A stretch of 64,000 nucleotides of DNA from Bradyrhizobium sp. CCBAU 53351 (lineage in GTDB: Bacteria > Pseudomonadota > Alphaproteobacteria > Rhizobiales > Xanthobacteraceae): contig NZ_CP030060.1 of the NCBI RefSeq assembly GCF_015291745.1, forward strand, positions 434,001 to 498,000. The letters are read 5' to 3'. Positions 20,569 to 42,382 of the stretch are shown here, piece after piece. Made by a program: the position numbers and the translations under genes. Positions within the stretch are counted from its first letter, which is position 1. Each line of letters starts with the position of its first letter. A model generated the notes under the pieces. That model saw only the letters and a program-made list of their open reading frames with translations. It made no database searches and was not told the DNA's origin.

Positions 20569-21984
20569 CTAGCAGACAGCAACGCGTACGTTGTTTGTCG
20601 CGCCTATTTGTCCGAATGGGAGGCCAAAGACCACGACGGCCAAGTCGCCGGACCGCACATAGCCTTCCCGTTGCGCTGCCACGGCCGCGATCCGGGTTAT
20701 TTCTTCATGGCCGGAGGGATCGCTGGCCACGACACTATGGACGCCCCACAACAGGCACATGCGTCGCGCCACAATGTCGTCTGGCGTCAGAGCAAGAACG
20801 GGGATCGGTGGTCGTTTGCGCGAAATGCGGGCTGCGGTCGTCCCGCTCGCCGTGAAGCCGATGATGGCTTTGGCCTCGATCGTGGCGGCAAGATCTGCGC
20901 CTGCCGCTGCGACAGCGTGTGGAGGGGTAATCTCTTCGTCGACTTGCGCAGCCCTGATCAAGGAGCGATAGAGACGATGTTGCTCCGTACTCCGGATGAT
21001 ACGATCCATCATGGCGACGGCTTCGGCCGGATAAGCGCCGTTTGCCGTTTCGGCTGATAGCATCACAGCATCGGCTCCATCATAGATGGCGGTCGCAACA
21101 TCGGAGGCTTCCGCGCGCGTCGGCGTCGGCGCTGCCACCATGGAATCAAGCATTTGGGTTGCGACGATCACGGGCTTTGCGGCCATTCGGCAAGCACGAA
21201 TGAGCTCTTTTTGTCGGCCAGGCACGTTTTCCGGGGGAATCTCGACCCCAAGATCGCCGCGGGCGACCATGAGGGCGTCGGACAATTTGATGATATCATC
21301 GATGTGATCAAGCGCCATTGGCGTTTCGATTTTGGCGACGAGGCCGGCTGCCTCACCGATTAGAGCTCGTGCCTCAATCAGGTCTGAAGGCTTCTGAACA
21401 AAGGACAAGGCAACCCAGTCGACGCCCAGCTCTAGGCCGAAGACGAGATCGTCACGATCCTTCTTGGTCAGGGGGTAGATATCAAGCAACGCTCCCGGCA
21501 CGTTTACGCCTTTTTGATCGCGGATCGTTCCACCGACAATGACGCGCGCTATCATGTCGCCATCGCCTGGCTTTTCGAGGCTTAGGCGAACACGGCCGTC
21601 ATCGATGAGCAGATTTTGACCTGGATACGCAGCTACAAAGATCTCCGGATGTGGCAGAGGGATCGCCTGCTTTCCGCCTCTTGCTCCGTCCAGAACAAAG
21701 CGGACCGTTTCGCCGGCCTGCAGCGTGAGCTCACCCTCTTCAAGCGAACCGATGCGCAGCTTCGGGCCTTGCAGATCTTGTAGCACGCCGATGGGTCGGC
21801 CGAATTCGCGCTCGAGCGCGCGAATGGCGGTAAAGGCGCGCGCGTGATCGTCTTTGGTGCCATGACTGAAGTTCAGGCGGAATGTATCGGCACCTGCAAG
21901 ATCGAGAGCACGGAGTTGGTCGAGCTCGACGGTTGCCGGGCCGATGGTTGCGACGATCTTGGCATGGCGCGAGCGGCGCATCAA
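20569..21984 (-). CDS. pyk: Pyruvate kinase
   Basis: Converts phosphoenolpyruvate and ADP to pyruvate and ATP; 471 residues, normal length. The N-terminus HAKIVATIGPATVELDQLRA and DTFRLNFSHG are family hallmarks. The catalytic lysine region is GLVAKIETPMALDHIDDII, and the metal/PEP motif is ALMVARGDLGVEIP. A C-terminal domain follows (IIGFTASGTTAARISRKRP). It is the last gene in the strand-consistent series Tm-1-like, TIM barrel, FAD dehydrogenase, pyk. That placement suggests this copy serves a catabolic route ending in PEP or pyruvate, though it could be the main glycolytic enzyme. The gap to the upstream gene is 94 bases. Confidence 0.93.
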   Translation of the reverse strand: MMRRSRHAKIVATIGPATVELDQLRALDLAGADTFRLNFSHGTKDDHARAFTAIRALEREFGRPIGVLQDLQGPKLRIGSLEEGELTLQAGETVRFVLDGARGGKQAIPLPHPEIFVAAYPGQNLLIDDGRVRLSLEKPGDGDMIARVIVGGTIRDQKGVNVPGALLDIYPLTKKDRDDLVFGLELGVDWVALSFVQKPSDLIEARALIGEAAGLVAKIETPMALDHIDDIIKLSDALMVARGDLGVEIPPENVPGRQKELIRACRMAAKPVIVATQMLDSMVAAPTPTRAEASDVATAIYDGADAVMLSAETANGAYPAEAVAMMDRIIRSTEQHRLYRSLIRAAQVDEEITPPHAVAAAGADLAATIEAKAIIGFTASGTTAARISRKRPPIPVLALTPDDIVARRMCLLWGVHSVVASDPSGHEEITRIAAVAAQREGYVRSGDLAVVVFGLPFGQIGATNNVRVAVC

Positions 21985-22078
21985 AAATCAAACCCCTTGG
22001 ATGAGCCGCCTTCGAGCCAGCCGCTCCTGGCGAAAGCCAATGCTTCGTCGATCACGCGCTCGCCCCATGCAAACGATG

Positions 22079-23857
22079 TCAAGCTCCAGAAGCGGCAGCC
22101 TTTGTCTTTTGCTGCGTCGCCGATAGGATGGCGTTGACAGCCCGGTACGCGAACACAATCGCAGGCCCGATGGTGATGCCTGCTCCTGGATAGATGCCGC
22201 GCATCGGGGATGTCATGTCGTTGCCGCAAGCGTAAAGGCCCGCGATGGATCTTTCCTGCCCGTCTAGGACCTGGCCGCAAGTGTCGGTTGCCAGGCCGGT
22301 GGCCGTGCCGAGCGTTGCCGGAACGATTGGAAGCGCGATAAACGGGCCTGTCTTGATGGGTCCGAGATTTGGGTTTTTCTTGCTCACGGCCGGATCGCCG
22401 AGCGTGCGATTAAAGGCGGATTCACCGCGTTTGAACAGCGGATCGCGCCCCTCAGCAGCGTGCGTGTTGTGCTCTTCGACGGTCTTTTCAAGCGCAGCCG
22501 GATCTAGCCCCAGCTGTTTGGCAAGTTCAGGAATTGTCCGGCCGACCTTGATGTACCCAAGGCGCGCATATTTTCCGATCCTCAAGGTCCAGGGCCAGGG
22601 CAGCAGATGTCCCATACCTCTCAACCGTACGAACTCCAGGTCGCAGATGAAGTAAAATCGCTTATCTGCCGGATAGCCGCTGGTGAACATCGCCAGGCAA
22701 ATGTCGTGATACGAATTGGATTCGTTGACGAAACGCTTGGCATCCGGCCCCACTGCGATGACGCCGGGACGGCCGCGATCGAGCCAGCCATAGGGGACCA
22801 CTTGGGAGGAGCTGCCGCTCTTGAGAATTGAGACGGGAGTCCAAAAGCCGGCAGAGGCGACATTGTTGTCAATCGCAGCTCCAAGCCTGGACGCCAGGGA
22901 AATGCCATCGCCCACAACGTCCACATGGGCCAGCGTGTCATCGTGCTGGTGGGGACCGCTGAGGCTGGCTCTTAACTCTGCGCTGCGAGCAAATCCGCCC
23001 GTTGCGAGGATGACGCCATGCGAGGCGCGCACGCGAAGGTCGGAACCGTTCCGCTTGACGACGGCTCCGGTGACACGCCCATCTTCCCTGATCAGCTCTA
23101 TCAGCGGGGAGCCAGGCCATATCTCGACGCCGTGCTTGCGCAGACTGACGACCAGGCGCGCGATCAGGGCGTTCCCTCCGCTGAGCTCTGTCCCGCGCCT
23201 GTGGCCCAGCCGGTCACGCGCGTAGCGACCGACACGCCGCAAGACGTGTCTGAGGGCGGCAAAGGATTGGAAGGGATTGAGGAAGCTTCTGACCTCGCTG
23301 GATGAGATCATCATTCCACCAAGCACAACCCGGATGGGATCGCCGATCAGATCGAAATCGGCTCCGAGAAGGCGCCCATCATAGGGAGCCGGGCTCAGTG
23401 CCCGGCCCTTGTCGACGCCGCCGATCTGGCTCGAATGATAATCGGGCGCCGAGGCCAGCGTGAAGTTGACCTCTGTCCCGTCCTCAAGGGCGGCAAGTGC
23501 AGCTGGGCCGTCCTCGAGATAAGCATCGATGAAGCCTGCCCGGTAATAGGTGCCAAGTTCGTGCTGCAGGTAGGTCCTTGCCTTCGCAAGCGAGTCGTCG
23601 ATCTTCGCTGAGCGCGCCTGGGGTGAGCAAGGAACCCAGATCATACCATTGGAAAGAGCTGTCGTGCCGCCGAGCCGGGCGGATTTTTCGCAGACAGTGA
23701 CGCGCAGTCCTGCTTTTGCCGCATAGAGGGCGGCCGAGAGCCCGGCTGCACCACTCCCGACTACGAGAACGTCGGTTGCCCATTCGTGATCCGCCCTTGC
23801 GCTTCGGGCGATCGCCACGGTCATGCCCTTGCTTGATTGGCCCATCGGTGTGTCCAT
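22079..23857 (-). CDS. FAD-dependent dehydrogenase (KstD/fumarate reductase flavoprotein type)
   Basis: A 592-residue flavoprotein starting at ATG 23857 after GAGGCTGGA; the longer frame lacks support. The FAD-binding Rossmann motif is VLVVGSGAAGLSAALYAA near residue 33, followed by CEKSARLGGTTALSNGMIW. A second block, ASHGVILATGGFARSAELRA, and the C-terminal IAGLYACGNDMTSPMRGIYP followed by GAGITIGPAIVFAYRAV are typical of 3-ketosteroid dehydrogenase and flavocytochrome c/fumarate reductase flavoproteins. No steroid genes are nearby. It probably oxidises or reduces a C-C bond of an intermediate made by the Tm-1/TIM-barrel genes upstream. Substrate unknown. Confidence 0.82.
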   Translation of the reverse strand: MDTPMGQSSKGMTVAIARSARADHEWATDVLVVGSGAAGLSAALYAAKAGLRVTVCEKSARLGGTTALSNGMIWVPCSPQARSAKIDDSLAKARTYLQHELGTYYRAGFIDAYLEDGPAALAALEDGTEVNFTLASAPDYHSSQIGGVDKGRALSPAPYDGRLLGADFDLIGDPIRVVLGGMMISSSEVRSFLNPFQSFAALRHVLRRVGRYARDRLGHRRGTELSGGNALIARLVVSLRKHGVEIWPGSPLIELIREDGRVTGAVVKRNGSDLRVRASHGVILATGGFARSAELRASLSGPHQHDDTLAHVDVVGDGISLASRLGAAIDNNVASAGFWTPVSILKSGSSSQVVPYGWLDRGRPGVIAVGPDAKRFVNESNSYHDICLAMFTSGYPADKRFYFICDLEFVRLRGMGHLLPWPWTLRIGKYARLGYIKVGRTIPELAKQLGLDPAALEKTVEEHNTHAAEGRDPLFKRGESAFNRTLGDPAVSKKNPNLGPIKTGPFIALPIVPATLGTATGLATDTCGQVLDGQERSIAGLYACGNDMTSPMRGIYPGAGITIGPAIVFAYRAVNAILSATQQKTKAAASGA

Positions 23858-23889
23858 TCCAGCCTCGCTGCGATTTCTTGGAACTGAGG

Positions 23890-24720
23890 TCAGTGATGTT
23901 GGGGAAGCGGGACGGCTTTGAATTCCTCGGCTGCCGCCTTTACTGCCCGTTCGATCGGAATTCGTTCGATGGAGGAGGCGCCGACAAATCCGACGCATTG
24001 CGTCGACCGGTACACCTCGGCCGTATCCGCGGGCTCTGCGATCGCACCACCATGGCAGAGCAGGACAACGTCGGAGCGCCCGCTCCTGGCCGCGGCGTTG
24101 ATGTCGTTGATGCGATTGATCGCGTCTTTGACCGACCGCCCTTCCTCATGGCCAACGAGCCCGCCCCGTGTGGCGCCGACATGAGGGATGATGCAGTCGG
24201 CCCCGGCGCTTGCCATCGCCTTGGCATCGTCCGGGTTTGCGACATAGGCGAGCGAGAAGATGTTCTTCTTGCGCGCAGATGCGATCATCTCGACTTCGCG
24301 TTCGAAGCCGAGCCCGACGCGGCCGCGGCGGTCGCGCCATTTGTCGCCCATGGTCGAGATGGTGGGATAGTTGATCACGCCTGAGAAGCCGGCCGCCCAG
24401 AATTTGTCGAGCAACGCATCGAGATCGAGCCGAACGGGATCCCAGGCCTCAACGCCGCCGATCACGGGGATGGAAGAGACAACGTTGCGGATTTCTGCGG
24501 CAAGCTCGAGCGTGCGCGCGTTGGAGTCTCCGATCCGGCTGGTCGGAAGCCCCATCAGGCGCGACAGCCCGGTAGAGTAGACCACCAGCATGTCCGCGCC
24601 CCCGAGGACAGCGCATTTGGCCACCAGGCCGCAGCTGCTGCCTGCGGCAAGAACCGCTCTGCGCTCGGCCACCTGGCTTGCGATCTTCGCTAGGATTTCG
24701 CTTCGCTCAAACATCCGCAT
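23890..24720 (-). CDS. PEP-hydrolase-like TIM-barrel protein (Tm-1 C-terminal type)
   Basis: 276 residues of the family named phosphoenolpyruvate hydrolase-like (PF09370 as I recall it), the same fold as the C-terminal half of the plant Tm-1 protein. Start ATG 24720. Visible blocks: RRAVLAAGSSCGLVAKCAVL, ADMLVVYSTGLSRLMGLPTS, VIGGVEAWDPVRLDLDALLD, FSGVINYPTIS, VGLGFEREVEMIASARKK and VVLLCHGGAIAEP. It follows the Tm-1-like gene by five bases, so the two halves of Tm-1 occur as neighbours. Homologous barrels occur twice more nearby: fused to a regulator (27128-28903) and as a short copy (26510-27115). No reaction has been proven to my knowledge; I infer a catabolic carbon-carbon lyase, hydrolase or isomerase role. 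Confidence 0.85.
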   Translation of the reverse strand: MRMFERSEILAKIASQVAERRAVLAAGSSCGLVAKCAVLGGADMLVVYSTGLSRLMGLPTSRIGDSNARTLELAAEIRNVVSSIPVIGGVEAWDPVRLDLDALLDKFWAAGFSGVINYPTISTMGDKWRDRRGRVGLGFEREVEMIASARKKNIFSLAYVANPDDAKAMASAGADCIIPHVGATRGGLVGHEEGRSVKDAINRINDINAAARSGRSDVVLLCHGGAIAEPADTAEVYRSTQCVGFVGASSIERIPIERAVKAAAEEFKAVPLPQHH

Positions 24721-24725
24721 CGCAG

Positions 24726-25961
24726 TCAGCCTTCCTGCGCCAATTGCTCGAGGATCCAACTCGCGGCCGCCTCGGCAAATTCGGGATCGTTGATGTGACA
24801 GTTCAATTCGCGCACCGTGATTTTGGGCGGCAGATTGTTCTTGACCGCGTCCAGCCAAGCGCGGTCGGCATTGCAATCACGGAACACGCCGCCGTCGCGG
24901 TCGTAGTCGGAGACGCCTTTCGCCGGCCAGAGCACGATGGCTGGCGCTTCGGCCCGCGACAGCCGCTCGGCCGTAAGCCGGCCGATGCTTGCGTTTTCGG
25001 ACGGAGTTGTGCGCATGAGCGTGGTGTAGCGAGTATGGGAGTAGAACTGGCGGCAGCGAAACTGATCGGGGACGCTGGATGGTGGACCAAAATTGACCAT
25101 GTCGACTGCGCCTGGCGCGACGACCTGCGGGATTGATCGATCCGCGGCTGCCTTGAGCCGATCCGGTCCGGCGCTGGCGGTGCCACCGACGATTTCGTCA
25201 GCAAGCTCGGTTGTGGTCAGATCGATTACAGCGTCAAACTCACCGGCCGCGATTAGCTGTTCCATCTTGCGCCCGCCGGCCCCGTTAGCGGGGAAAACGA
25301 TCGCATCGAGGCCGGCCTCTCCAAGACGTCTTACGCATTGATTGGCCGCCGGCGTCGTAACTCCGAAGGCCGTGATGGCGACGATTTTCTTCCGTCTCCT
25401 CTGACGGGATGGCTCATATTGCATGGCGGCCACGGCGCGGCCGGCATTGTCCAGCACGCGTTGGGTGAAGGCGTTGATCCCGAAGAGGTCGACAAGGGTC
25501 GGATAGAGGATGATGTCGTTATGGACGGCCAGTTCGGCGAGCAGTGCGGGCCTGGCGCTACTCACAAGGAGCTTCGGGAAGCCATATGGTAAATCGCGGA
25601 CGACTTCGCCAAAGACGGCGCTGCCCTTGCCACCCGCAATTCCGACAATTGCGCTGATCGCGCCTGATTGGCGAAGATCATCGACCATTTTGCGGGCCGA
25701 TTGGGCAATGTCGTTCAAGAGCTCGACGGGAGAAACGGCGCGGCCGCCATCTGTCGGCTCTTTGTCCGACCCTGCCTTGGACGTACCGACGTCTAAGACC
25801 ACCGTCGTGCGGCCCAGGCCTTCGATGACGTTTCGGAGATAAGATGCTTCTGCGCCCTTCGTATCGAGCGTCGCCACGATTGCAACGGCGCCAGCGGCTC
25901 CGACCTTGGGCGAGCGCCCAAGCCTGGCCGACTTCGCGTCGTCGGTGCAATGGTGCGACAC
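24726..25961 (-). CDS. Tm-1-like ATP-binding domain protein (UPF0261)
   Basis: 411 residues, homologous to the N-terminal half of tomato Tm-1, which binds ATP. The GTG start at 25961 follows GAGAGGAAAGATC. Family blocks are AIVATLDTKGAEASYLRNVI near residue 27, AISAIVGIAGGKGSAVFGEV near residue 100, FGVTTPAANQCVRRL near 205, FPANGAGGRKMEQLIAAGEF near 230, PQVVAPGAVDMVNFGPPSSV near 285 and the C-terminal LNCHINDPEFAEA. First gene of the unit with the TIM barrel, FAD dehydrogenase and pyk. The direct-repeat site at 26042-26058 lies 81 bases upstream. Biochemical role is unknown. Confidence 0.88.
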   Translation of the reverse strand: MSHHCTDDAKSARLGRSPKVGAAGAVAIVATLDTKGAEASYLRNVIEGLGRTTVVLDVGTSKAGSDKEPTDGGRAVSPVELLNDIAQSARKMVDDLRQSGAISAIVGIAGGKGSAVFGEVVRDLPYGFPKLLVSSARPALLAELAVHNDIILYPTLVDLFGINAFTQRVLDNAGRAVAAMQYEPSRQRRRKKIVAITAFGVTTPAANQCVRRLGEAGLDAIVFPANGAGGRKMEQLIAAGEFDAVIDLTTTELADEIVGGTASAGPDRLKAAADRSIPQVVAPGAVDMVNFGPPSSVPDQFRCRQFYSHTRYTTLMRTTPSENASIGRLTAERLSRAEAPAIVLWPAKGVSDYDRDGGVFRDCNADRAWLDAVKNNLPPKITVRELNCHINDPEFAEAAASWILEQLAQEG

Positions 25962-26041
25962 GATCTTTCCTCTCCGATCCTGCTTGATACGAATGGTCTA
26001 AACGCGGCCGAGACGCTCAATAAGTGCCGCGCCGGGGAGAG

Positions 26042-26058
26042 TTGGGTAATATTGGGTA
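26042..26058 (-). promoter_or_regulatory. Tandem direct repeat, candidate operator (site 1)
   Basis: On the plus strand the sequence is TTGGGTAATATTGGGTA: two TTGGGTA units exactly one helical turn (10 bp) apart. It lies 81 bases upstream of the Tm-1-like gene. The same arrangement occurs at 26486-26502 and 35966-35982, each before a transcription unit carrying a member of, or controlled by, the TIM-barrel family. Confidence 0.7.
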
Positions 26059-26311
26059 GATGTCTCGAAGCGCTCGGGAGCGCACCGGTGGCTCTAGCCA
26101 AGGTTGCCTGTCCTGTCTGCGGCGTGTCTTCCCCTCTCCTCTTCCGGCATCTTCTGTCCGGCGTCCTTTCGGGCCCATGAGACGCACGCGGTGCGCAGCA
26201 GGCGAAGGTCATCTCCGCCAGCCCTTGGGACGCTGTTTCACCCATTGCAAAAAGTGCCAAGTGGCGGGCGGGTGGACAGCTCGCGCGGTTCAATGCCTGT
26301 GAATTGAATTC

Positions 26312-26347
26312 TAAAAAGAGACCGCTGCTGGAGCTCTCCAACAGCGG
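26312..26347 (-). terminator. Candidate intrinsic terminator, minus strand
   Basis: Read on the minus strand, an imperfect stem (CCGCTGTTGG with CCAGCAGCGG) is followed by TCTCTTTTTAG. It would stop minus-strand transcripts running past the regulator gene before they reach the Tm-1-like promoter. The stem has one unpaired position, so strength is moderate. Confidence 0.5.
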
Positions 26348-26485
26348 CGTAAGTCGAGGGAGGAAGCAGACGAGGCCGGCCTGCCAGCGGATAGATGAGA
26401 CGTCGTCGGAAGCCTGACGTGCCTAGATGTCGTGCAGATCTCTAGACCGAACTGAAATGCCGTATAAGATCAGTGCGATGTTTAA

Positions 26486-26502
26486 ATGGGTAAGATTGGG
26501 TA
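26486..26502 (+). promoter_or_regulatory. Tandem direct repeat, candidate operator (site 2)
   Basis: The plus strand reads ATGGGTAAGATTGGGTA, matching the other two sites at 13 of the 14 repeat positions with the same 10-bp period. It ends seven bases before the TTG start of the short TIM-barrel gene, so a bound protein would block transcription or translation initiation there, or the true promoter is elsewhere. Confidence 0.7.
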
Positions 26503-26509
26503 GAGGCGG

Positions 26510-27115
26510 TTGAAGCAAAGAGCAGTCGGCGAGCTCATTTCAAGCAGGTCGGACACGCGCGAGGGTTATTGCCTAGCAATCTATGCGCCGGCTTTAGGGA
26601 GCCTTCCGGAAGGCTCCATGCTGGTCATGGCGACCTTGCCCGTCGTTGACTGGAACGATTGTCTGTTACGGGATCTGCGCACGTTCCGAAAGGAGAGATC
26701 TGCGGGTGTTTACGCCGCGATCGTCATGATCGATCCCTTCGCGTGCTGGGAGGATCTTGCCGATGCGTTGAAAGAGGCCGGGATCAAGGGGATCATCAAC
26801 TTCCCGCCGGCGTCTCTCATTGAGCGGTCAACGACAGGGACGCCCATTGAAAGCGGACAGGAGATCGAGCTTCGACGTCTGGAATGGTTTGCCAATTTGG
26901 ACTTCAGGGTGTTGTTCGCGACGGACGACATCTCTAAGACCGCAATGGCCGAGCGGCGCATCGGCTCGCATCTGGCCGGCCTGGTCCAGATGCCGGAAGA
27001 AGCGCTCAAGTTCGTGATTGGCGATGGCGTCGATTTGGTAAGCGCCGGGAAGCGAGGAGCGCCGGTGGCGAAGTTCGCGCTTCTGAGCGGCACGAAGCCG
27101 CCAGCGCGAAAATAA
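26510..27115 (+). CDS. Short, divergent PEP-hydrolase-like TIM-barrel protein
   Basis: A 201-residue protein that aligns by eye with the middle of the full TIM-barrel neighbour: YCLAIYAPALGSLPEG matches its MLVVYSTGLSRLMGLP, IVMIDPFACWEDLADALKEA and GIKGIINFPPASL match VEAWDPVRLDLDALLDKFWA and GFSGVINYPTIS, and GQEIELRRLEWFANLDFRVL matches FEREVEMIASARKKNIF. The first strand with the AGSSCGL block and the late CHGGAI block are missing or unrecognisable, so an eight-strand barrel is doubtful. The only in-frame start before the homology is TTG 26510. It is divergent from the Tm-1 unit and convergent with the regulator gene (12 bases between stops). It may be a ligand-binding or regulatory relic; no function is assigned. 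Confidence 0.65.
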   Translation: MKQRAVGELISSRSDTREGYCLAIYAPALGSLPEGSMLVMATLPVVDWNDCLLRDLRTFRKERSAGVYAAIVMIDPFACWEDLADALKEAGIKGIINFPPASLIERSTTGTPIESGQEIELRRLEWFANLDFRVLFATDDISKTAMAERRIGSHLAGLVQMPEEALKFVIGDGVDLVSAGKRGAPVAKFALLSGTKPPARK

Positions 27116-27127
27116 TGAGGAGCAGAG

Positions 27128-28903
27128 CTACTCCAGGATCCGCAGCTTCTTGATCTTGTTGTAGAGGGTCTTCCTGGAGAGTCCAAGGGACTGGGCAGTT
27201 TTTCCGCGGTGGAGCTTGTTTCGTTTCAGCCCTTCGATGATCCACTCGCGCTCGGAGAACACATTTGTCCGTTTCACGGCCGATGACGCGGTCAGCAAAG
27301 GCCTTAGGACGTCAGCCGTAATGTGTGACAGTTGCAGCGTCACCAGCTGGTTGACGATTTGGCGCAACTCTCGCAGGTTTCCCGGCCAATCATGCCCGGC
27401 AAGCGCCAGGAAGGCAGAATTCTCTATTCCCAACGTCGGCGCGTTTGAATCTCCCTTCGCTTCCACCGTGAAATGCTGGACCAGTTGGGGAAGGTCTTCG
27501 AGCCTGTCCGGCAAGGCCGGCAGGGCAATGTCAAGCCCGGTAAACAGGGCAAGAAGCCGAGGACAGAGCACGGTTTGAAGGCTGGCGCTGCGAGCAATTG
27601 TCGCTGTTGCAATGATCCGTGCGTTGGACCGCACGACCGATACCCCGTTCAGGGGTGCAAAACCGCCGGTCTCGAGGTAATCAGCAAGACGCTCCTGGCC
27701 ATCCCGCGGCAGTTGATCCAGATGCAGCAGCAGGACGGCAGTGCCGTTTGCAGCTTCAAGAATCGATAGTTGGCGCTTCCTGGTCTCGTCGCGCTCCGCG
27801 CCGAACAATGCACCGATGTTGCCCGCTGCCGGCCCCGCGCGGCACTGGAAGAGCGCAGCCTTTGTATGTTTGCGGTCGCTGAAGCTGTGAACGAGATTCG
27901 CTATCCTGCGTTTTCCCGAGCCCGTTTCGCCCCACACGAGCACAGGATTAGGATTGGCAGCCAGGCGTTTGGCGGTCTCGAGCACCCGCTTCATGACTGA
28001 GGATTGGGCAATGACGCCGTGCCTGAACCCGCTCAATTGGAGCTGACGCTCGAGCAGATCGACTTTCTCGCGCAAGAGATGAATCGTCTTGAACCCGGAT
28101 GTGACCTCGAGGACCGACATCTCCAACGGGACCCGGTCCAGCGAAGAGCCGCCTATGAAGCCCTGGACGCCCGTTTCGCGGCAGATATCGAGGAGTTCGT
28201 CCGGCTTTGTAATGGGTCCGCCGCCGAGTAGACAGATGACGTTCTTGTCGGTGGAGTGCGCCACCCGTGTCACGGCGCTGGTCCGCGCTGCGAGCTCGGA
28301 CTGGCTGATCGATGGATCAGATCCGCTTTCGACGCTGCGATTGAGATTGAAGTTGATGCAGATCGCCTCAATGCCTGCCTCGACCATGCGCCGCGCTTCG
28401 GCCTGGGAGCGGGTATAGGCAATCGTCATCAAACCGCGTTGACGGGCTTTTGTTAGAAGTTCGATTTCTCGCTCGTAGCCGAGGCCAGATTTCTCGAGCA
28501 AGGACCTTCTAAAATCGTCGATGTGGATGACGGAGGGGAAATTGGTAACCCCTGTAAAGCCCCATCGGATGATCCGGTCGAGGAAGCGATCGAGATCGAG
28601 GCGCGGATCGAAGGTGCATGCGCCGAAAAAGACCGGCAGTTTGGTGCTGGGCAGGATCTCGGTTCGGCCGAATCCGGCGACGAATTCGTTGCTATCGCGG
28701 ATGGGCAGGATCGAGGCTGGCGAGGAGCCGCCCATGGCGCGAAAACGGCCAGCGTTGAGCGCAAGGACAAAATCTGCACCCGCCCGTTCGGCCGCCCTTG
28801 CGGTCATGCCCGAGCCGATGCCTGCCCCGAGCACGAATGAACGGGAATTGCGGAAGAACTGCCTGATTCCTGCGTTCTTGACCTGCTCTACCCGGTTGTG
28901 CAT
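27128..28903 (-). CDS. Fusion regulator: TIM barrel + degenerate AAA+ + Fis-type HTH
   Basis: 591 residues from ATG 28903, preceded by AGGAGGGGCGGCCGGT. Residues 1-275 are a PEP-hydrolase-like TIM barrel (GADFVLALNAGRFRAMGGSS, FDPRLDLDRFLDRIIRWGFT, GLGYEREIELLTKARQRG, VICLLGGGPI). Residues 276-292 look like a helical linker. Residues 295-540 are a sigma54-activator-type AAA+ domain with intact Walker A (GETGSGK, 325-331) and HDWPGNLREL near 505. The GAFTGA loop that contacts sigma54 is absent: the region reads LFGAERDETRKRQL. The Walker B acidic pair is replaced by AVLLLHLDQLP. A Fis-type HTH ends the protein (HRGKTAQSLGLSRKTLYNKI). Last gene of the ABC-PfkB-SDR-phosphatase unit. I infer a sigma54-independent, ligand-sensing regulator of this locus. 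Confidence 0.88.
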   Translation of the reverse strand: MHNRVEQVKNAGIRQFFRNSRSFVLGAGIGSGMTARAAERAGADFVLALNAGRFRAMGGSSPASILPIRDSNEFVAGFGRTEILPSTKLPVFFGACTFDPRLDLDRFLDRIIRWGFTGVTNFPSVIHIDDFRRSLLEKSGLGYEREIELLTKARQRGLMTIAYTRSQAEARRMVEAGIEAICINFNLNRSVESGSDPSISQSELAARTSAVTRVAHSTDKNVICLLGGGPITKPDELLDICRETGVQGFIGGSSLDRVPLEMSVLEVTSGFKTIHLLREKVDLLERQLQLSGFRHGVIAQSSVMKRVLETAKRLAANPNPVLVWGETGSGKRRIANLVHSFSDRKHTKAALFQCRAGPAAGNIGALFGAERDETRKRQLSILEAANGTAVLLLHLDQLPRDGQERLADYLETGGFAPLNGVSVVRSNARIIATATIARSASLQTVLCPRLLALFTGLDIALPALPDRLEDLPQLVQHFTVEAKGDSNAPTLGIENSAFLALAGHDWPGNLRELRQIVNQLVTLQLSHITADVLRPLLTASSAVKRTNVFSEREWIIEGLKRNKLHRGKTAQSLGLSRKTLYNKIKKLRILE

Positions 28904-28937
28904 ACCGGCCGCCCCTCCTGTGCGGCAGGCCCGAAAA

Positions 28938-30050
28938 TTAGCTCCAATTTGCCGGTGCGTGCAACCGCTGCAGGGCCTTGCCGTTGGCCGTGAACAGGTG
29001 GCAATCGGCTGGTGAAGCCGCAAGGCGGACCTTGCCAGATCGTTTGGCTGGCTCGAGCCGTGGCGCTTTGGCGACCACGGCTTCCTTGCCCGCGTTGCCG
29101 TAGATGTAGGTGACGCTGCCAAGGTGCTCGACGAAATCGACGTCCAGCTCGAGAGCGATCTCTTTGTCTTCTGCCGGCTGCGAGAAATCATCGGGACGGA
29201 TCCCGAGCGTGATCGGCTTGCCGACCAGCAATTGATCCGGCCGAACGGGGACCGAGACGGTCGAGCCCGCGTCAAGCCTGACCTCCACCCCTGTCTCGTG
29301 CGCGGCCTCGATATGACCGCCCAAAAAATTCATCTTAGGCGAGCCAATGAAGCCGGCGACGAAGCGCGACGCCGGGTAGTGATAGAGCTCGTGGGGGCTC
29401 CCCACCTGCTCGATATTGCCGTCCTTGAGCACGACGATCTTGTCAGCCATGGTCATGGCCTCGACCTGATCGTGAGTGACGTAGATCATGGTGTTTCCAA
29501 GCTGCTCGTGGAGCTTGGCGATCTGGACCCGCATCTGCACCCGCAGCTCGGTGTCGAGGTTGGACAGCGGCTCGTCAAACAGAAACACCTTGGGCTCGCG
29601 GACGATGGCCCGCCCGATCGCCACGCGCTGGCGCTGGCCGCCGGAGAGCTGCCGTGGCTTGCGATCGAGCAAATGGTCGATCTGCAATAAGGACGCGGCC
29701 TCAGCGACACGCTTCCCGATCTCCGCTTTCGTCGCTTTGGCCATCCGCAAGGGGAAAGCCAGGTTTTCCCGGACGGTCATGTGCGGATAGAGGGCGTAGC
29801 TCTGGAACACCATGCCTAGATTGCGGTCGGCCGCGTCCACGTCGTTGACGAGCTCATTGTCGATGAAAAGCCGTCCTCCGCTAATCGGCTCGAGACCGCC
29901 GATCATGCGCAGCAGGGTCGACTTGCCCGACCCTGAAGGCCCGACGAAGACGACGAATTCGCCGTGATCGATGGTGAGGTCGATATTGCGCAGGATCTGG
30001 ATAGTGCCATAGGCCTTGTTGAGGCCTTCCAGGCGAACATTGGCCATCAC
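28938..30050 (-). CDS. ABC transporter ATP-binding protein (UgpC/MalK type)
   Basis: ATPase subunit of the second sugar-type importer, 370 residues. Walker [10 protein letters not shown], signature [16 protein letters not shown], Walker [12 protein letters not shown] and the H-loop [17 protein letters not shown] are all intact. The TOBE-like C-terminal domain starts near residue 240 ([14 protein letters not shown]). The start overlaps the end of the phosphatase gene by four bases. It is separated from the permeases by three catabolic genes, an interleaved order that ties uptake and breakdown into one transcript. Confidence 0.92.
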
Positions 30051-30871
30051 GCTCTCCTCTGCCGTACGGTGTCTACACCAGCCTTCACGGCGATTTCTGA
30101 AAGGCTGGACACGGTAAAGTCGGCTGGCAGCAGCGCGGCGTCCTTGCGAGGTGGGACGCCTGTCGTGACGAGCACGGCAGGAAGGCCGGCGCGCTTGCCG
30201 GCCTGGATATCTGTCTGTATCTGGTCGCCGATCATCAATGTGGATTGACGTGGCGTTCCAAGCCGCGAAAGCGCGGCTTCGATCATGTGCGTCTCGGGTT
30301 TGCCGACGATCAGAGGCTGGACTTGAGTTGCGGCTGCAACTGCCGTGATCATGGCCCCTGCCCCTGGTTCGAAGCCGTCCGCAGTCGGCAAGAGAAGATC
30401 AGGGTTTGTGCCTATGAACACGGCGCCGCCCAGGATAGCCGCAGCAGCAATTCGCAGCTTGTCATGCGTAATCTGGCGGTCGAGCCCCATCACCACGACT
30501 TCAGGCTTCGCATCGGTGACTTCGAGGCCCGCCTCCTCGATCGCTTTGGCAAGGGATGGCGCGCCGATGACAAAGGCCCGTGTCAGTTTCGGGTATTGGG
30601 CGCGAATGAGCGCCGCGGCCGTGATGGCGCTCGTCACGACCTGCCTCGGGGAGATCGAAAGCCCGAAACCTCCGACCTTGCGCACAACATCTTCCGGCGT
30701 GTGGGTCGAATTGTTAGTGACGAAGCAGAAGGGAAGTTTTGCCCGCTGCCAGCTCTTGAAGGCTTCGATGGCGTCCGCGATCGCGGCGTTCCCCCGGTAG
30801 ACCACGCCATCCAGATCGGAAATGACACCGGCGATCTCGGGCCATTGAAGCTGAGTGCCGGACTTAGCCAT
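30047..30871 (-). CDS. HAD-superfamily phosphatase, NagD-like
   Basis: A 274-residue HAD phosphatase with a large cap domain of the NagD/PGP type. Motif I is [14 protein letters not shown] near residue 16 (nucleophile Asp and acid/base Asp), motif II lies in [13 protein letters not shown], and motif IV is [16 protein letters not shown]. The cap includes [14 protein letters not shown], typical of NagD/AraL relatives. It overlaps the SDR gene by eight bases and the ATPase gene by four. In a sugar operon it probably removes phosphate from a dead-end or intermediate sugar phosphate. Confidence 0.87.
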
Positions 30872-31634
30872 TCATCAGCATCCCGCCGTTCACGTGAACG
30901 ATCTGGCCGGTCATGTAGGAGGCCGCAGGGCTTGCGAGAAACACGGCAAGGCCGGCAATGTCGTTCGGCAATCCAACCCGTCCCAATGGGATTCGGCCGC
31001 TATGGCGGGCTTCCGTCTCCTCACGCGGACGGCCATGCATGGGGGTGTCGATGATCCCCGGTGCGATTGCATTCACATTGATCTTGAGCGGCGCGCATTC
31101 ATAAGCAAGGAGCTTTGTGATGTCGTGAACGATTGCCTTGGAGAGGCAATAGTCCGCCCCTCCGGCCTGATAGTTGAATACGGCGCCTTGCGAAGACAAG
31201 GAGGAACCGACATTGACGATGCGGCCGCCCTTGGTTGTCATGAAGCGCTCGATCGCGAGCTTCGAGCAGCGGAGGATTGCGACCGAGTTGATCTGGATTG
31301 TGCGTTCGATCTTGTCGGCCGCCCCGCTGAGGAGCGGCTGGGCAGATTTAACGCCGGCATTGTTGACGAGCACGTCGAGCCGGCCGAATCGTTTTCCGAT
31401 CTCCTCGAGCACGCGCGCCACGTCCTCTTCGCGCGAAACGTCCATGGCCATCGGCAACACGCCATTGCCATGGGGAAGTCCTACCAATGTCTGCCTGAGG
31501 CTTTCGAGATTGGCGTCGGTGGCAACGACGTTGGCCCCTCCTGCCCGAAACGCATTCACAATGGCAGATCCGATGCCGCCCCCTGCCCCTGTCACGAGCA
31601 CCGTTCTGTCTGAGACTGAGAACTGTTCGGTCAT
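30864..31634 (-). CDS. Short-chain dehydrogenase/reductase
   Basis: 256 residues. The cofactor motif is VLVTGAGGGIGSAIVNAF, followed by ATDANLESL with an aspartate suited to NAD. VNNAGVKSAQPLL, the serine block VGSSLSSQGAVF and the catalytic YCLSK are present, and it ends with the usual [11 protein letters not shown]. The start overlaps the kinase stop (ATGA). Likely a polyol or sugar dehydrogenase acting on the imported substrate before or after phosphorylation by the PfkB kinase. Confidence 0.88.
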   Translation of the reverse strand: MTEQFSVSDRTVLVTGAGGGIGSAIVNAFRAGGANVVATDANLESLRQTLVGLPHGNGVLPMAMDVSREEDVARVLEEIGKRFGRLDVLVNNAGVKSAQPLLSGAADKIERTIQINSVAILRCSKLAIERFMTTKGGRIVNVGSSLSSQGAVFNYQAGGADYCLSKAIVHDITKLLAYECAPLKINVNAIAPGIIDTPMHGRPREETEARHSGRIPLGRVGLPNDIAGLAVFLASPAASYMTGQIVHVNGGMLMNG

Positions 31635-32572
31635 TCCAACTCCAAGATCGTTTGTGATTTGAGGAATTCATCGACCTCTGCTGCCAGCGGCATTGAGGCC
31701 TGCGCCCCGCGGCGCGTTACGCACAGGGCAGCAACGGCTAGTGCTCGTCTGACCGAATCCCTCAGAGGCAGGCCTTGAGCGAGCGAAGCGGCAAAAGCGC
31801 CATTGAAGGCGTCCCCGGCGGCCGTGGTATCGACGACTTTGACGGGAAAGGCACGCAGCGCAAACGAGTGCGCCGCGTCGGCATAGAAGGCGCCCTGCGC
31901 TCCCAGCGTGATCAGTGCGGCTTTGGGTCCGAGGTGCAGAAGCTTGGACGCCGCCACTGCGGCGCTGTCGAAATCGGTCACCTCTACCCCGGTCAGCTCG
32001 AAGGCCTCGGTCTGGTTGGGGGTCACGTAATCGACTTGTCGCCATGCCGCCGGCGAAAGCCCGGGTCTGACCGGCGCCGGATTAAAAATGAGTTCGAAGC
32101 CCTTCTCGCTTTTCATTTCAAAGAGCCGGTTGAGGGCGGAGATGGGCAAGCCCATTTCGGCAACAACGAGCGCGCCTGGCGCGATGAATGCGGCCGCGCT
32201 CTCAACCATGGCCGGCATCACATTCAGATTGGCGCCCGGATCGATCACGATCATGTTCGAACCGTCGTCTCCCACCAGGACGAGGGCCGAGCCGGAGACC
32301 TCACCGGCACAAATGGTGATGGCCTCAGCACGGACTCCGGCTTCGCGCAGTGACTGCAAGAGGGACTGGCCAGCCTCGTCCCCGCCAAGACGGGTGTAGA
32401 ATAGGGGCTTCAGTCCAAGCCGTGCGGCCGCTACGGCTTGATTGGCGCCCTTCCCTCCAGGATTGCGGTTCAATTTGCCCATCAAACTTTCACCCGGCGT
32501 TGGCAGCCGCTCGACATTGAAGCAGAGGTCGAGATTGGTCGTTCCAAAGAACATCAAGGGCCTGGGATTCAT
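31631..32572 (-). CDS. PfkB-family sugar kinase, ribokinase-like
   Basis: 313 residues starting at ATG 32572, which overlaps the permease stop (ATGA); the long upstream extension is a shadow of the permease gene. The N-terminal PfkB signature is NPGGKGANQAVAAARLG and the C-terminal one is VVDTTAAGDAFNGAFAASLA, holding the catalytic aspartate. Substrate-contact region NLDLCFNVERLPTPGES resembles ribokinase. It would phosphorylate the sugar or polyol brought in by the adjacent ABC importer. Confidence 0.9.
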   Translation of the reverse strand: MNPRPLMFFGTTNLDLCFNVERLPTPGESLMGKLNRNPGGKGANQAVAAARLGLKPLFYTRLGGDEAGQSLLQSLREAGVRAEAITICAGEVSGSALVLVGDDGSNMIVIDPGANLNVMPAMVESAAAFIAPGALVVAEMGLPISALNRLFEMKSEKGFELIFNPAPVRPGLSPAAWRQVDYVTPNQTEAFELTGVEVTDFDSAAVAASKLLHLGPKAALITLGAQGAFYADAAHSFALRAFPVKVVDTTAAGDAFNGAFAASLAQGLPLRDSVRRALAVAALCVTRRGAQASMPLAAEVDEFLKSQTILELE

Positions 32573-33429
32573 TTTACTGCCCCGAAAGTGAGACCACGTT
32601 CGAGGTGGCGCTGGCCCATCACGATCAAGATCACCGGAATGATCATGGTAACGACCAGTCCTGCAGCCATGACGGGATAGAACTGCACCCCCGGATTGAG
32701 CAGCTTGAGTAGCGCGACGGTCACCGGCGCCTTGGTGGAGCTCAGGATCAAGCCGAGCGCGAAGTTGTGCCAGGCCAGCAGAAAGATCAGCAAGGAGGCG
32801 CCGATCAGGCCGGGCTTGAGAAGCGGCAGCACGATATGCAGAATGACCCTGACAGGTTTGGCCCCGTCCATCGCTGCAGCCTCCTCGATGTCCTTTGGAA
32901 TATCCTCGATGTAGGAGCGGCTCAACCACACGATCATAGGCAGCGTGACGACCTGGTAGACCCAGATCATGCCGAGATAGGTGTCGTAGAGTCCGATGGT
33001 CTGGAACACGTTGAAGAGCGGGATGACGACGAGCAAGGCCGGGGCGAACCTGAAGCCAAGAATGAAGAAGGCGATGTCCTCCTTCATCGGGATGTCTCGC
33101 CTTGCCAGAACGTAACCGGCGGGCACGCCAAGGAGCATTGAGACGAAAACAGATCCGAGCGCGATGGCGACGCTATTTGTCACTGGCGTGAGGAAATCAA
33201 CCTTGATGGTGCCATAGCTTGTCGCGCCGGCCTGCGCGGCGTCGAACAGCACCCGGAAATTCTCAAGCGTCGGCGAGAAGATGAACTTGGGCGGCCAGGC
33301 CATGACCTCGCCCTGCTGTTTCAACGACATCAGCAGGATCCAGATCAGCGGAAAAGCGAGAGTGAGCGCGCAGATGCCAACCAGCAGATTGAGAGCGATA
33401 TTTGTCGATCCTGAGCGATTTAGGCGCAT
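32569..33429 (-). CDS. ABC sugar transporter permease (MalG/UgpE type)
   Basis: 286 residues, six hydrophobic segments. The N-terminal helix LNLLVGICALTLAFPLIWIL and the EAA loop PKDIEEAAAMDGAKPVRVI are typical, and the C-terminus GQRHLERGLTFGAVK is the standard ending. It lies between the first permease and the kinase gene. Belongs to the same importer as the binding protein at 34463-35848. Confidence 0.9.
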   Translation of the reverse strand: MRLNRSGSTNIALNLLVGICALTLAFPLIWILLMSLKQQGEVMAWPPKFIFSPTLENFRVLFDAAQAGATSYGTIKVDFLTPVTNSVAIALGSVFVSMLLGVPAGYVLARRDIPMKEDIAFFILGFRFAPALLVVIPLFNVFQTIGLYDTYLGMIWVYQVVTLPMIVWLSRSYIEDIPKDIEEAAAMDGAKPVRVILHIVLPLLKPGLIGASLLIFLLAWHNFALGLILSSTKAPVTVALLKLLNPGVQFYPVMAAGLVVTMIIPVILIVMGQRHLERGLTFGAVK

Positions 33430-33440
33430 GTCGCGTCTCT

Positions 33441-34436
33441 TCAGCTAACGCGTTGTCGGACGTATCGCCACAACTTGACCGTGAGGAACGCTCCGGCCAG
33501 GACGATGATCCAATTGACGACCATGAGGGCCGCGCCCCGGCCGAAGGCGAGGTTCTGGAATGCGGTGATGTAGGCGCGCACGGAAAGAACGGAGGTGCTG
33601 TTGCCGGGACCGCCTTGCGTCGTTCCGAAAATGATGTCGAATTGATTGAGAGATTCGATCAGACGGAAGACCGCAGCAATCAGGATGTAGGGCGCGATCA
33701 ACGGCAGCTCGATGTAGAGGAAGGTTGCCCAGCCCTTTGCACCATTGACGCGCGCGGCCTCCCTGATCTCCTCATTGATGCCCTGGAGGCCGGCGAAGAT
33801 GATCAGCGTGAAAAAGGGGGTGTAAGTCCATATGTCGATCAGGACGAGGGAAATCATCGCTGTCGCGGGATCAGAAATCCATGCAAACCGGCCCATTCCT
33901 ACAAGCGACAGCAGATAGTTCAGGATGCCGCTCTGCGGATCCATCATCGTCGTCCACATCAAGGCAACGCTCATGGGCGGAAGCACGAGTGGCAACAGAA
34001 TGACCGGCCGCATCACGCGTGCCAGGAACACTTCGGTGGCAAAGAGCTTGGCGAGGGCAACGCCGAGCACGGCTTCCGCAAGGACCGCTGAACCAGCGTA
34101 GACAAGTGTTGCTCGGACGCTATTCCAGAAGTCGTCTGTCTTGATCAACGCGGCGTAATTGGTAAGGCCAATAAAGTGGACCAGTGGCCGGCCGAACTTG
34201 AGATCCGTCAGGGACTGAAATACGCCGTAGAAGAACAGGAACAGAAAGCCAAGAAGGATCAAGACCGCCGGCGCGATCGCGGCGATGCTCCACCAGTCAA
34301 GGCGCGGCGGGCTGGCACTCTTGGCCGCGCCGTCTTGCGCCGAAGCGAGTTGGCTCACTGAAGACTGCAGCGTCACGATTGCGTCTAATCCTGAAGAATA
34401 CATTTCAACTGACATCGAAATCCAAGGGGGCGGCAT
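33441..34436 (-). CDS. ABC sugar transporter permease (MalF/UgpA type)
   Basis: Up to 331 residues. ATG 34436 has an AAGGGGGTGGTAGG tract upstream; ATGs at 34415 and 34403 are possible alternatives, and the first 45 residues are poorly conserved-looking. The first helix is IAAIAPAVLILLGFLFLFFY, the EAA loop reads EIREAARVNGAKGWATFLYI, and FGTTQGGPGNSTSVLSVRAY is the family C-terminal block. Eleven bases precede the next permease. Confidence 0.9.
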   Translation of the reverse strand: MPPPWISMSVEMYSSGLDAIVTLQSSVSQLASAQDGAAKSASPPRLDWWSIAAIAPAVLILLGFLFLFFYGVFQSLTDLKFGRPLVHFIGLTNYAALIKTDDFWNSVRATLVYAGSAVLAEAVLGVALAKLFATEVFLARVMRPVILLPLVLPPMSVALMWTTMMDPQSGILNYLLSLVGMGRFAWISDPATAMISLVLIDIWTYTPFFTLIIFAGLQGINEEIREAARVNGAKGWATFLYIELPLIAPYILIAAVFRLIESLNQFDIIFGTTQGGPGNSTSVLSVRAYITAFQNLAFGRGAALMVVNWIIVLAGAFLTVKLWRYVRQRVS

Positions 34437-34462
34437 GCAAGCCTACCACCCCCTTTGGGACT

Positions 34463-35848
34463 TCACATCGACGAACGGATCTCGGAGGCAAGGTCGGTCA
34501 GCGTTGCCTTCACATCCGCTCCATTGACCATCTTCTGCATCGCCACCGCCCAGGCATTCATTGCCTCGGCGAAGCCGACGCGGGCCGTAAAGGCGAGTTG
34601 CGCCTGGTCCTGCACAGTCTTGAACGTCTCGACGAAGTTGTTGAATTCAGGCTTTGCGGCGTATTCGAGCCAGGCCTTGTCGCTCCAGGTCGATGCGCGC
34701 GGAGAGTTGACGAGCTTGCCCGCAACGGCACCGTTCAGCTCGACCTGCTTGGAGGTCGCCCATTGGATGAAGAGCCAGGCCGCGCCCTTCTTCTGGGAGG
34801 CGGCGTTCATGGCCAGAGACCAGATCCAGATGTTGGATTCGAAGTTCTTGCCGTTCGGTGCGCGCAACGGTGGTGCAAAGGCGATCTTGCCGGAGGCGGG
34901 CTTGCCGGCGACGTCGTTCCAGAAACCGAACATGTTGGAATCGATCGCCATGGCGGTCCGCCCTGAATTGATCCCTTCGACCACCTGGTACCAATTGTCA
35001 TTGGCAAAGGAGGGAGCAGCGCATTTCTTGATCATGTCGACATAGTCTTTGTGGAAGGCGATCGACTCTGGCGAATCCAGGCCCGTGTCGAGTTTGCCGT
35101 CTTTGACGACGAAATCGTGCACGCCATAGGACCTCGCAATCGAGATCGCAGCCGTGTGGATGCTGCTCCAGAACCTTACGCCGCGAACGCCGAGAGGCGT
35201 GATGGTGGGATCGGCAGCTTTGAGTTTCTCACAAGCGGCCGACATCTCCGGCGGGGTGCTCGGGACTTTGATACCGTGCTTGTCCAGCACATCCTTGCGG
35301 TAGAACAACTGGATGTTCTCGAAGCCATGGGGGATCGCCCAGACCTGCCCGCTGCCGGCCTCGATCTGGCCCTCCTTGACCTTCCATGTCAGCGCTTCGC
35401 GCAAGGCTGGGAAGAAGTCCTTGTAGTCGTAGGCTGCAGAGGTGAGCTTTGAATCGTTTAGATAGCGATCGAGCGGTTCGAGCAGTTGGCCCGGGGCAAG
35501 GTCCCAGGCGGGCTGGATGCCCGTGCCGACGACATCCCAGCTTGGCGATTTCGTGCTGAGCTGGATCGTTAGCTTATTCCAATAGGCATCATCCGGATAA
35601 AGCTCCGGCGTCACCTTGATGCCGGTGAGTTTCTCGAACTCGGGCAGTTGAGCCGCAACAGCGTCAGCATAGGGGTGAATATCGTAGGCCCAGACGATGG
35701 ACGTGCCTTCGAATTGCCGCCAGTTGATGTCTTCTGCGTAGGCCTGGGTGGCAGCCAGTGCCGCCCCGGCGCACACGGTGGAGTTAATGAGAGCTTTTTT
35801 GATAAGTTGAGCCGAATGACCGCAAACAACGGCTAGCGTCCTTGGCAT
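34463..35848 (-). CDS. ABC transporter substrate-binding protein, family 1
   Basis: A 461-residue periplasmic binding protein that starts the importer-kinase-SDR-phosphatase-regulator unit. ATG 35848 follows CGGAGGGAATC; the earlier frame to 35884 lacks a ribosome site. The signal peptide ends near AATQAYAED. TSIVWAYDIHPYADAVAAQL resembles the N-terminus of the other family-1 binding protein in the window, and QLFYRKDVLDKHGIKVPSTP is a conserved block. The direct-repeat site 3 lies about 118 bases upstream. The bound sugar is unknown. Confidence 0.9.
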   Translation of the reverse strand: MPRTLAVVCGHSAQLIKKALINSTVCAGAALAATQAYAEDINWRQFEGTSIVWAYDIHPYADAVAAQLPEFEKLTGIKVTPELYPDDAYWNKLTIQLSTKSPSWDVVGTGIQPAWDLAPGQLLEPLDRYLNDSKLTSAAYDYKDFFPALREALTWKVKEGQIEAGSGQVWAIPHGFENIQLFYRKDVLDKHGIKVPSTPPEMSAACEKLKAADPTITPLGVRGVRFWSSIHTAAISIARSYGVHDFVVKDGKLDTGLDSPESIAFHKDYVDMIKKCAAPSFANDNWYQVVEGINSGRTAMAIDSNMFGFWNDVAGKPASGKIAFAPPLRAPNGKNFESNIWIWSLAMNAASQKKGAAWLFIQWATSKQVELNGAVAGKLVNSPRASTWSDKAWLEYAAKPEFNNFVETFKTVQDQAQLAFTARVGFAEAMNAWAVAMQKMVNGADVKATLTDLASEIRSSM

Positions 35849-35965
35849 GATTCCCTCCGATGGGCTCTTTGGCCCGCAAACCACGCGCCCTCTCCTCTAG
35901 CAGAGGCCGTGGTAGGCGAAGGCTATGCGCCATTCTAACGGGCTAAGCGGCTTTTGACACAGAGT

Positions 35966-35982
35966 TTGGGTAAGGTTGGGTA
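35966..35982 (-). promoter_or_regulatory. Tandem direct repeat, candidate operator (site 3)
   Basis: Plus strand TTGGGTAAGGTTGGGTA, with the TTGGGTA units 10 bp apart as in sites 1 and 2. It lies about 118 bases upstream of the binding-protein start. The surrounding stretch from 35849 to 36221 has no gene. Confidence 0.7.

Positions 35983-38678: not shown

Positions 38679-42382
<3,704 letters not shown>

Follow-up and report, generated by a model that had tools for sequence, protein, structure and literature searches.

Gene set and layout of the locus

The window analysed here, a stretch of 64,000 nucleotides from Bradyrhizobium sp. CCBAU 53351 (contig NZ_CP030060.1, positions 434,001 to 498,000), is part of the 979-kb contig in a two-contig genome of 8.1 Mb and contains a putative catabolic regulon built around three related barrels of the PEP_hydrolase family, namely a stand-alone barrel (BAR), a barrel joined to a regulator (REG) and a shrunken barrel (MINI), next to a UPF0261 protein (UPF). 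At the level of the sequence it could be shown that one 16-bp operator marks three units and that REG links a BAR-homologous barrel to a Fis-type DNA-binding domain via a motor-less AAA+ domain. The three-barrel arrangement had been described in an earlier note on this DNA, and the genes were indeed found where that note had placed them. On the minus strand the order of transcription is SBP, two permeases, PfkB kinase, SDR, phosphatase, ATPase and REG, followed by UPF, BAR, FAD and pyruvate kinase; MINI is a plus-strand gene and sits between the two minus-strand groups. The features are as follows.

34463..35848, minus strand: SBP, extracellular solute-binding protein of the importer (Pfam SBP_bac_1; nearest solved chain 4rya, sorbitol-binding, E 2e-18)
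33441..34376, minus strand: importer permease 1 (Pfam BPD_transp_1)
32569..33429, minus strand: importer permease 2 (Pfam BPD_transp_1)
31631..32554, minus strand: PfkB kinase of the ribokinase type (286 bits versus an NCBIfam ribokinase cut-off of 299.65; ribokinase 1gqt, E 5e-54)
30864..31634, minus strand: SDR, short-chain dehydrogenase/reductase (family profiles; nearest solved chains generic FabG-like)
30047..30871, minus strand: HAD-IIA (NagD-type) phosphatase (family profiles)
28938..30047, minus strand: importer ATPase of the UgpC/MalK type (family profiles)
27128..28903, minus strand: REG, PEP_hydrolase-like pseudo-barrel, degenerate sigma54-activator AAA+ domain and Fis-type helix-turn-helix (Pfam, alignments)
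26510..27115, plus strand: MINI, shrunken barrel accompanying REG as a conserved partner (start codon uncertain, 26510-26618)
24726..25961, minus strand: UPF, UPF0261 or Tm-1 N-terminal-type protein, predicted kinase (profiles, fold comparison)
23890..24720, minus strand: BAR, stand-alone PEP_hydrolase-like barrel, predicted enzyme (Pfam, invariant residues)
22079..23857, minus strand: FAD, flavin adenine dinucleotide (FAD) dehydrogenase of the 3-ketosteroid delta1-dehydrogenase family (family profiles, solved-chain match)
20569..21981, minus strand: pyruvate kinase (in both copies of the system in this genome; outside the conserved set)
35967..35982, minus strand: operator TACCCA-N4-TACCCA, 118 bp upstream of SBP
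26487..26502, minus strand: operator, adjoining the MINI start
26043..26058, minus strand: operator, 81 bp upstream of UPF

The barrel of REG is 99% identical to a plasmid protein of Bradyrhizobium sp. 62B.

The shared operator and a second copy of the system

The motif TACCCA-N4-TACCCA precedes all three units, with three sites in the window and none in 100 shuffles, which bears out the shared repeat that the earlier note had seen ahead of them. Searching the whole genome with TACCCAANNTTACCCA at up to one mismatch gave seven sites (reversed control: 0), three of which belong to the system in the window and four to a second copy of it, none lying outside the two copies. This second copy is located on the same contig at C2:145-203 kb (L015-L018), shares 60-96% protein identity with the first and contains pyruvate kinase, FAD, BAR, UPF, MINI, REG, ATPase, SDR, kinase, permeases and SBP, the SBP gene being split into two open reading frames (ORFs) and the SDR shortened; its phosphatase fell at the edge of the compared stretches, where the region aligns at the DNA level. 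Between UPF and MINI the second copy is interrupted by about 43 kb. Nine proteins of this gap were scanned: reverse transcriptases of group II introns and pieces of IS66 transposases account for two each, a branched-chain-type importer for four, and the ninth is an amidase. Inside the gap an extra exact operator stands 127 bp before the amidase gene (L016:2872-4386), after which the branched-chain-type importer genes follow.

The operator was also surveyed in 59 loci around REG relatives (1.12 Mb), where 68 sites at up to one mismatch, 31 of them exact, were distributed over 47 loci. As controls, 20 shuffled hexamers gave 0-11 sites each and other spacings 0-4. With up to two mismatches allowed, 12 of 13 sequences have the operator 114-120 bp before the start of the SBP match, and all nine sequences compared for UPF have it 71-157 bp before that gene. 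The UPF distances of the window (71), L047 (72) and L057 (88) refer to weaker overlapping or nearby sites, the better site of the window being the one at 81 bp. For L059 the operator lies 117 bp before the ORF start and was missed in the SBP count, which used the start of the tblastn match.

The conserved core among relatives

Comparison of the loci indicates that the conserved core consists of REG (barrel-AAA+-Fis), MINI, the UPF0261 protein and the stand-alone BAR, while transporters and other enzymes vary. Leaving pyruvate kinase aside, the other twelve genes form one unbroken run in Mesorhizobium (L054), Allorhizobium (L055), Shinella (L057) and Methylocapsa (L059). In Alphaproteobacteria and Gammaproteobacteria alike, REG is accompanied by UPF and BAR, and REG, MINI, UPF and BAR are still together in more distant loci. 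Among the 42 loci with full flanks MINI occurs in 40, UPF in 36, BAR in 36 and all three in 35; of the six loci lacking UPF and BAR, five are from Bradyrhizobium and one from a planctomycete. The importer differs between these systems. A pair of importer ATPase genes is found near UPF in 27 of 46 distant loci (L060-L104, L107), and the importer was of the branched-chain type in the three of those loci to which Pfam was applied (L062, L063, L092); Ensifer (L060) and Bosea (L068) carry a Ugp/MalK-type importer together with a cupin and a GFO/IDH/MocA dehydrogenase. The only match to pyruvate kinase in the relatives' loci was a partial one (46%, L056).

Of 385 sampled genomes from the class, 40 contained PF09370 and nine, the window genome included, a REG-like match, defined as an open frame of 579-815 residues judged without its AAA+ part. 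In all nine, BAR is found within 11 kb on the contig that carries this match, and the seven from outside the genus all have a MINI-like partial PF09370 match within about 2 kb, on the other strand in six. The earlier note had proposed a single co-regulated system and had named missing co-occurrence in other genomes as its refutation. REG, MINI, UPF and BAR were instead found kept together, and the single system is supported by this co-occurrence, the shared operator, the second copy on the contig and the twelve contiguous genes in four other genera.

Two related observations may be recorded here. On contig C1, L014:6493-8709 (+) encodes an importer ATPase fused to a UPF0261 protein (738 residues), adjoining a BAR-type barrel and a branched-chain-type importer. 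In another genome of the genus the PF09370 match at G105:C144:5054-5848 is broken by two stop codons, and this genome has no exact operator site.

The barrel of REG as a predicted pseudo-enzyme

PF09370 (PEP_hydrolase) matches BAR with 291.8 bits and REG with 283.5 bits (gathering score 33.8). When 32 BAR and 57 REG barrels were aligned together, with the partial sequences L058, L098 and L101 left out, R54, N117, P119, E142, S249 and R253 are invariant in both groups. H180, invariant in BAR, is N in 51 of the 57 REG barrels, and H223, likewise invariant in BAR, is E or G in 55. Furthermore, K35 is replaced by R, Q or L in 48 REG barrels, T184 by N in 51 and E252 by D in 49. The four residues K35, H180, T184 and H223 are each present in 32/32 BAR, whereas REG of the window has R, N, N and G at these positions, and MINI does not have this set either. 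From their invariance we infer a catalytic role of these residues in BAR. Because the shared frame is kept and both BAR-invariant histidines are replaced, the REG barrel is predicted to bind its ligand and not to convert it, and the natural reading is that it would bind the same kind of ligand as BAR without turnover. The idea of an enzyme-type barrel used as a sensor, already present in the earlier note, thereby gains support and becomes more specific.

Many database records of PEP_hydrolase-sigma54 fusion regulators ("putative TIM-barrel enzyme/transcriptional regulator") have the same domain order as REG. Their annotation implies an enzyme combined with a sigma54-type activator, and the evidence presented here speaks against both for most of the members seen.

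MINI, a conserved shrunken barrel

MINI is present in 53 of 59 REG loci and belongs to a family of at least 48 members, two of them from the window genome, with 43 invariant columns among 13 aligned sequences. It keeps D94, P95, N117 and P119 and lacks R54 and R253. The MINI of a relative (L092) reaches 36.3 bits with PF09370, above the gathering score. The earlier note had regarded MINI as a truncated copy, and it would be conceivable that it is a functionless, decaying duplicate: the protein is short, its match to PF09370 in the window (21.4 bits) stays below the gathering score, and its ratio of nonsynonymous to synonymous polymorphism (pN/pS), 0.40, is the highest among the five genes tested. 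A pN/pS of 0.40 is nevertheless below 1 and indicates constraint, and the eight compared sequences are free of internal stops. Together with the family size, the invariant columns and the occurrence in 53 loci this makes a decaying duplicate very improbable; MINI as debris of a truncated copy was rejected on the same grounds, and we regard it as a conserved partner of REG. In 14 REG homologues (P0070-P0083, 690-854 residues) an extra barrel-like domain stands in front of the sensor barrel, and we read this extra domain as MINI-like. The fold-search findings for MINI, and those for UPF given below, hold among the matches listed.

Loss of the sigma54 motor

The AAA+ domain of REG is matched by PF00158 (Sigma54_activat) with 67.8 bits (E 1e-18), and its Pfam name would make REG an ordinary sigma54 activator. 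This is hardly credible for the window. Walker A (GETGSGKR) is still present in its REG, and nine of 58 REG relatives keep Walker A, GAFTGA and Walker B, as expected from such an activator. In REG of the window, though, the GAFTGA position reads GAERDE---TRKRQ and Walker B reads VLLLH, so that both motifs are lost, and among the matches listed the GAFTGA loop occurs in 0/120 REG homologues. GAFTGA is missing from 49 of the 58 relatives, 48 of these have lost the DE of Walker B too, L088 being the exception, and Walker A is gone as well in many marine lineages. The control activators, AAA+ matches without a barrel (L105, L106, L108-L126) that were left out of the REG rows, have GAFTGA in 14 of 21 cases; L098 could not be aligned in the motif count. 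Without GAFTGA and Walker B in its AAA+ domain, REG of the window is predicted to be sigma54-independent. Sigma54 control of the window units was rejected on the loss of these motifs and on the missing GG-N10-GC, which was not found at a fixed place after the operators. Sigma70-like hexamers, judged by eye, stand near some SBP operators only.

The promoters upstream of UPF appear to follow the state of the motor. A sigma54-like promoter was defined as at least 6/8 matches beside GG and GC within 300 nt upstream of UPF, and 46 loci with UPF were considered. In this post hoc comparison it was present in 6/7 motor-bearing loci versus 1/39 motor-less ones (Fisher p 5e-6). The seventh motor-bearing locus, L069, has a perfect site (8/8) at 12653 that lies outside the Fisher count, the UPF start having been set too early. 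The background of such sites in motor-less loci is 82 in 963 kb, about one per 12 kb. In a barrel tree built without the partial L058, L098 and L101 the motor-bearing rows cluster, requiring three changes, a number as low being reached in 0/500 shuffles; some long branches are unsure.

As far as the available parts of the sources go, loss of GAFTGA goes along with sigma70 dependence in TyrR, DhaR and HupR (PMC3162934), and the comparison of TyrR with PhhR provides a further precedent for loss of the sigma54-contact loop (PMC1173090, PMC3162934). These cases, TyrR/PhhR, DhaR and HupR, resemble the REG family in that the loop is lost while other family members keep it. Unlike them, the REG family has an enzyme-derived barrel as its predicted sensor, its Walker motifs decay too, and the change of promoter can be traced beside one conserved operator.

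UPF, BAR and the proposed regulon

UPF is matched by PF06792 and PF23189 and has the Tm-1 fold. A solved UPF0261 member, PDB 9mpy (Saro_1862 of Novosphingobium aromaticivorans), has acetovanillone bound, which suggests by analogy that UPF may be a kinase. Saro_1862 is probably the kinase MarK; acetovanillone catabolism in this organism begins with a single-component kinase of that name, according to the available text of PMC13101465. In contrast to the single-component MarK described there, all 36 UPF-bearing loci with full flanks also carry BAR. UPF0261 and PEP_hydrolase-like proteins occur in bacteria, archaea, fungi and plants, and the tomato antiviral protein Tm-1 joins both; the accessible portion of the same study describes Tm-1-like proteins as plant UPF0261-PEP_hydrolase fusions whose parts are generally separate genes in bacteria (PMC5028733). 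There the pair comes, in that portion, without a regulator, operator or pathway, whereas here it forms part of a regulon that has its own pseudo-barrel regulator as well as MINI. At the level of titles, and Brucella papers naming UPF0261 aside, no native role of the pair was found in the literature; PMC5028733 alone appeared to be centred on the family, and the part available of the review PMC13406360 held nothing relevant here. The term PEP hydrolase is a family name and no indication of activity.

A further candidate, UPF and BAR as a kinase of the AcvAB/HpeHI kind, was dropped: as far as the partly available literature describes them, HpeHI belongs to the rifampin-phosphotransferase type, and acvABCDEF and hpeHICBAD are homologous.

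Taken together, we consider it fairly probable that the locus is a regulon for the substrate-induced uptake and breakdown of a compound, as judged from sequence comparison. REG would bind TACCCA-N4-TACCCA, two half-sites one helical turn apart, and its pseudo-barrel would bind the substrate or product of BAR, with MINI pairing with this barrel as the second part of the sensor. Promoters of the sigma70 type, not of the sigma54 type, would be controlled in this way. UPF would act as an ATP-dependent kinase whose phosphorylated product is the substrate of BAR, and the importer, ribokinase-like kinase, SDR, phosphatase and FAD dehydrogenase would be clade-specific additions that bring the compound to the UPF/BAR step. 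In this clade the compound is plausibly a polyol, a sugar or a cyclic ketone-polyol.

Several observations weigh against this regulon. In the 59 loci the reversed motif gave 18 sites (3 exact) as compared with the 68 (31 exact) of the operator, part of the 18 being real sites read one base on. In 27 chosen further genomes ten exact sites faced seven of the reversed control, so that the total is not enriched. Since the total hardly exceeds this control, it is the placement near REG that stands out there: nine of the ten sites lie within 8.5 kb of REG and come from six of the ten genomes that have a REG-like frame, the tenth site being found among the 17 other genomes; four of the ten genomes with REG have no exact site. 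The comparison of motor and promoter was designed after the data had been seen. The structure model of MINI comes from one of five predictions (pLDDT, the predicted local distance difference test score, 81.8; the others 57-71). By profile comparison the extra domain of the 14 long REG homologues is at least as close to REG barrels (probability 98.8) as to MINI (97.3) and could for this reason be a separate duplication. UPF of the window is only 29% identical to 9mpy, which differs at several motifs that are invariant in UPF's own alignment (DTK, S134 and D158/N163 are common to both, the N290-F291 region differs), and the identity of 9mpy with MarK is one that we infer.

The earlier note had proposed a different chemistry. 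In such a sugar or polyol pathway the PfkB kinase would phosphorylate the imported compound, the SDR would oxidise it and BAR would cleave it to pyruvate or PEP (phosphoenolpyruvate), before pyruvate kinase acts. The Ugp/MalK-type importer with an SBP nearest to a sorbitol-binding chain, the kinase close to ribokinase, the SDR, the NagD-type phosphatase and the fact that each of the two copies in this genome includes pyruvate kinase would fit it. Against it, conservation of the set does not extend to pyruvate kinase, the distant relatives L062, L063 and L092 have branched-chain-type importers, ATPase pairs stand near UPF in more than half of the distant loci as counted above, a UPF0261 member binds an aromatic ketone, and the name of the BAR family says nothing of its activity. 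We regard this pathway as unlikely. Of the earlier interpretation, the co-regulated system and the enzyme-type barrel sensor are supported; the sugar, the pyruvate product and the truncated copy are not.

An aromatic pathway of the lignin type, in which UPF would phosphorylate a phenolic ketone as Saro_1862 seems to do and BAR would act on the aryl phosphate, appears still less probable. It would account for the acetovanillone in 9mpy, for the start of acetovanillone catabolism with MarK (PMC13101465, in its available part), for the branched-chain-type importers of distant loci and for the amidase and branched-chain-type importer behind the same operator in the second copy. The importer of the window set, however, is of the polyol type and is accompanied by a ribokinase-like kinase, no carboxylase of the Hpe/Acv kind was found among the 13 genes of the set scanned with Pfam, and UPF is closer to plant Tm-1 (34-35% identity) than to Saro_1862, from which it differs in several motifs.

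Beyond the substrate-induced regulon itself, a wider proposal seems possible to us, with a slight lean against it: a two-part sensor made of enzyme-type barrels only, a dead full barrel and a separate shrunken one, would run a Tm-1-type kinase/barrel pathway across proteobacteria. The REG family would have lost its sigma54 motor in steps, first GAFTGA and Walker B and later, in many marine lineages, Walker A as well; the sigma54 promoter would have vanished while TACCCA stayed, and intermediates of this switch from sigma54 to sigma70 would survive today. The single kinds involved, a catabolic regulon, a motor-less enhancer-binding protein and a Tm-1-like pair, are known; their combination was not found described in the literature searched. 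The operator, importer and enzyme-derived sensor make the role of the pair a ligand-screening problem, in which the ligand of the REG barrel should point to the substrate of BAR. The REG family, moreover, provides natural examples ranging from intact to dead sigma54 motors next to a conserved operator.

A neighbouring open reading frame

Outside the system, window positions 38679-40355 (minus strand) form one ORF in which the first ~205 residues of glyceraldehyde-3-phosphate dehydrogenase (GAPDH) are in frame with the catalytic domain of the large chain of ribulose-1,5-bisphosphate carboxylase/oxygenase (RuBisCO), adjoining cbb-type genes. Among 31 genomes searched this joined form was seen in the window only. 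The window genome also has separate GAPDH and RuBisCO matches on C1, and genome G587 has both as close neighbours on one contig; the join is likely a deletion or an assembly error.

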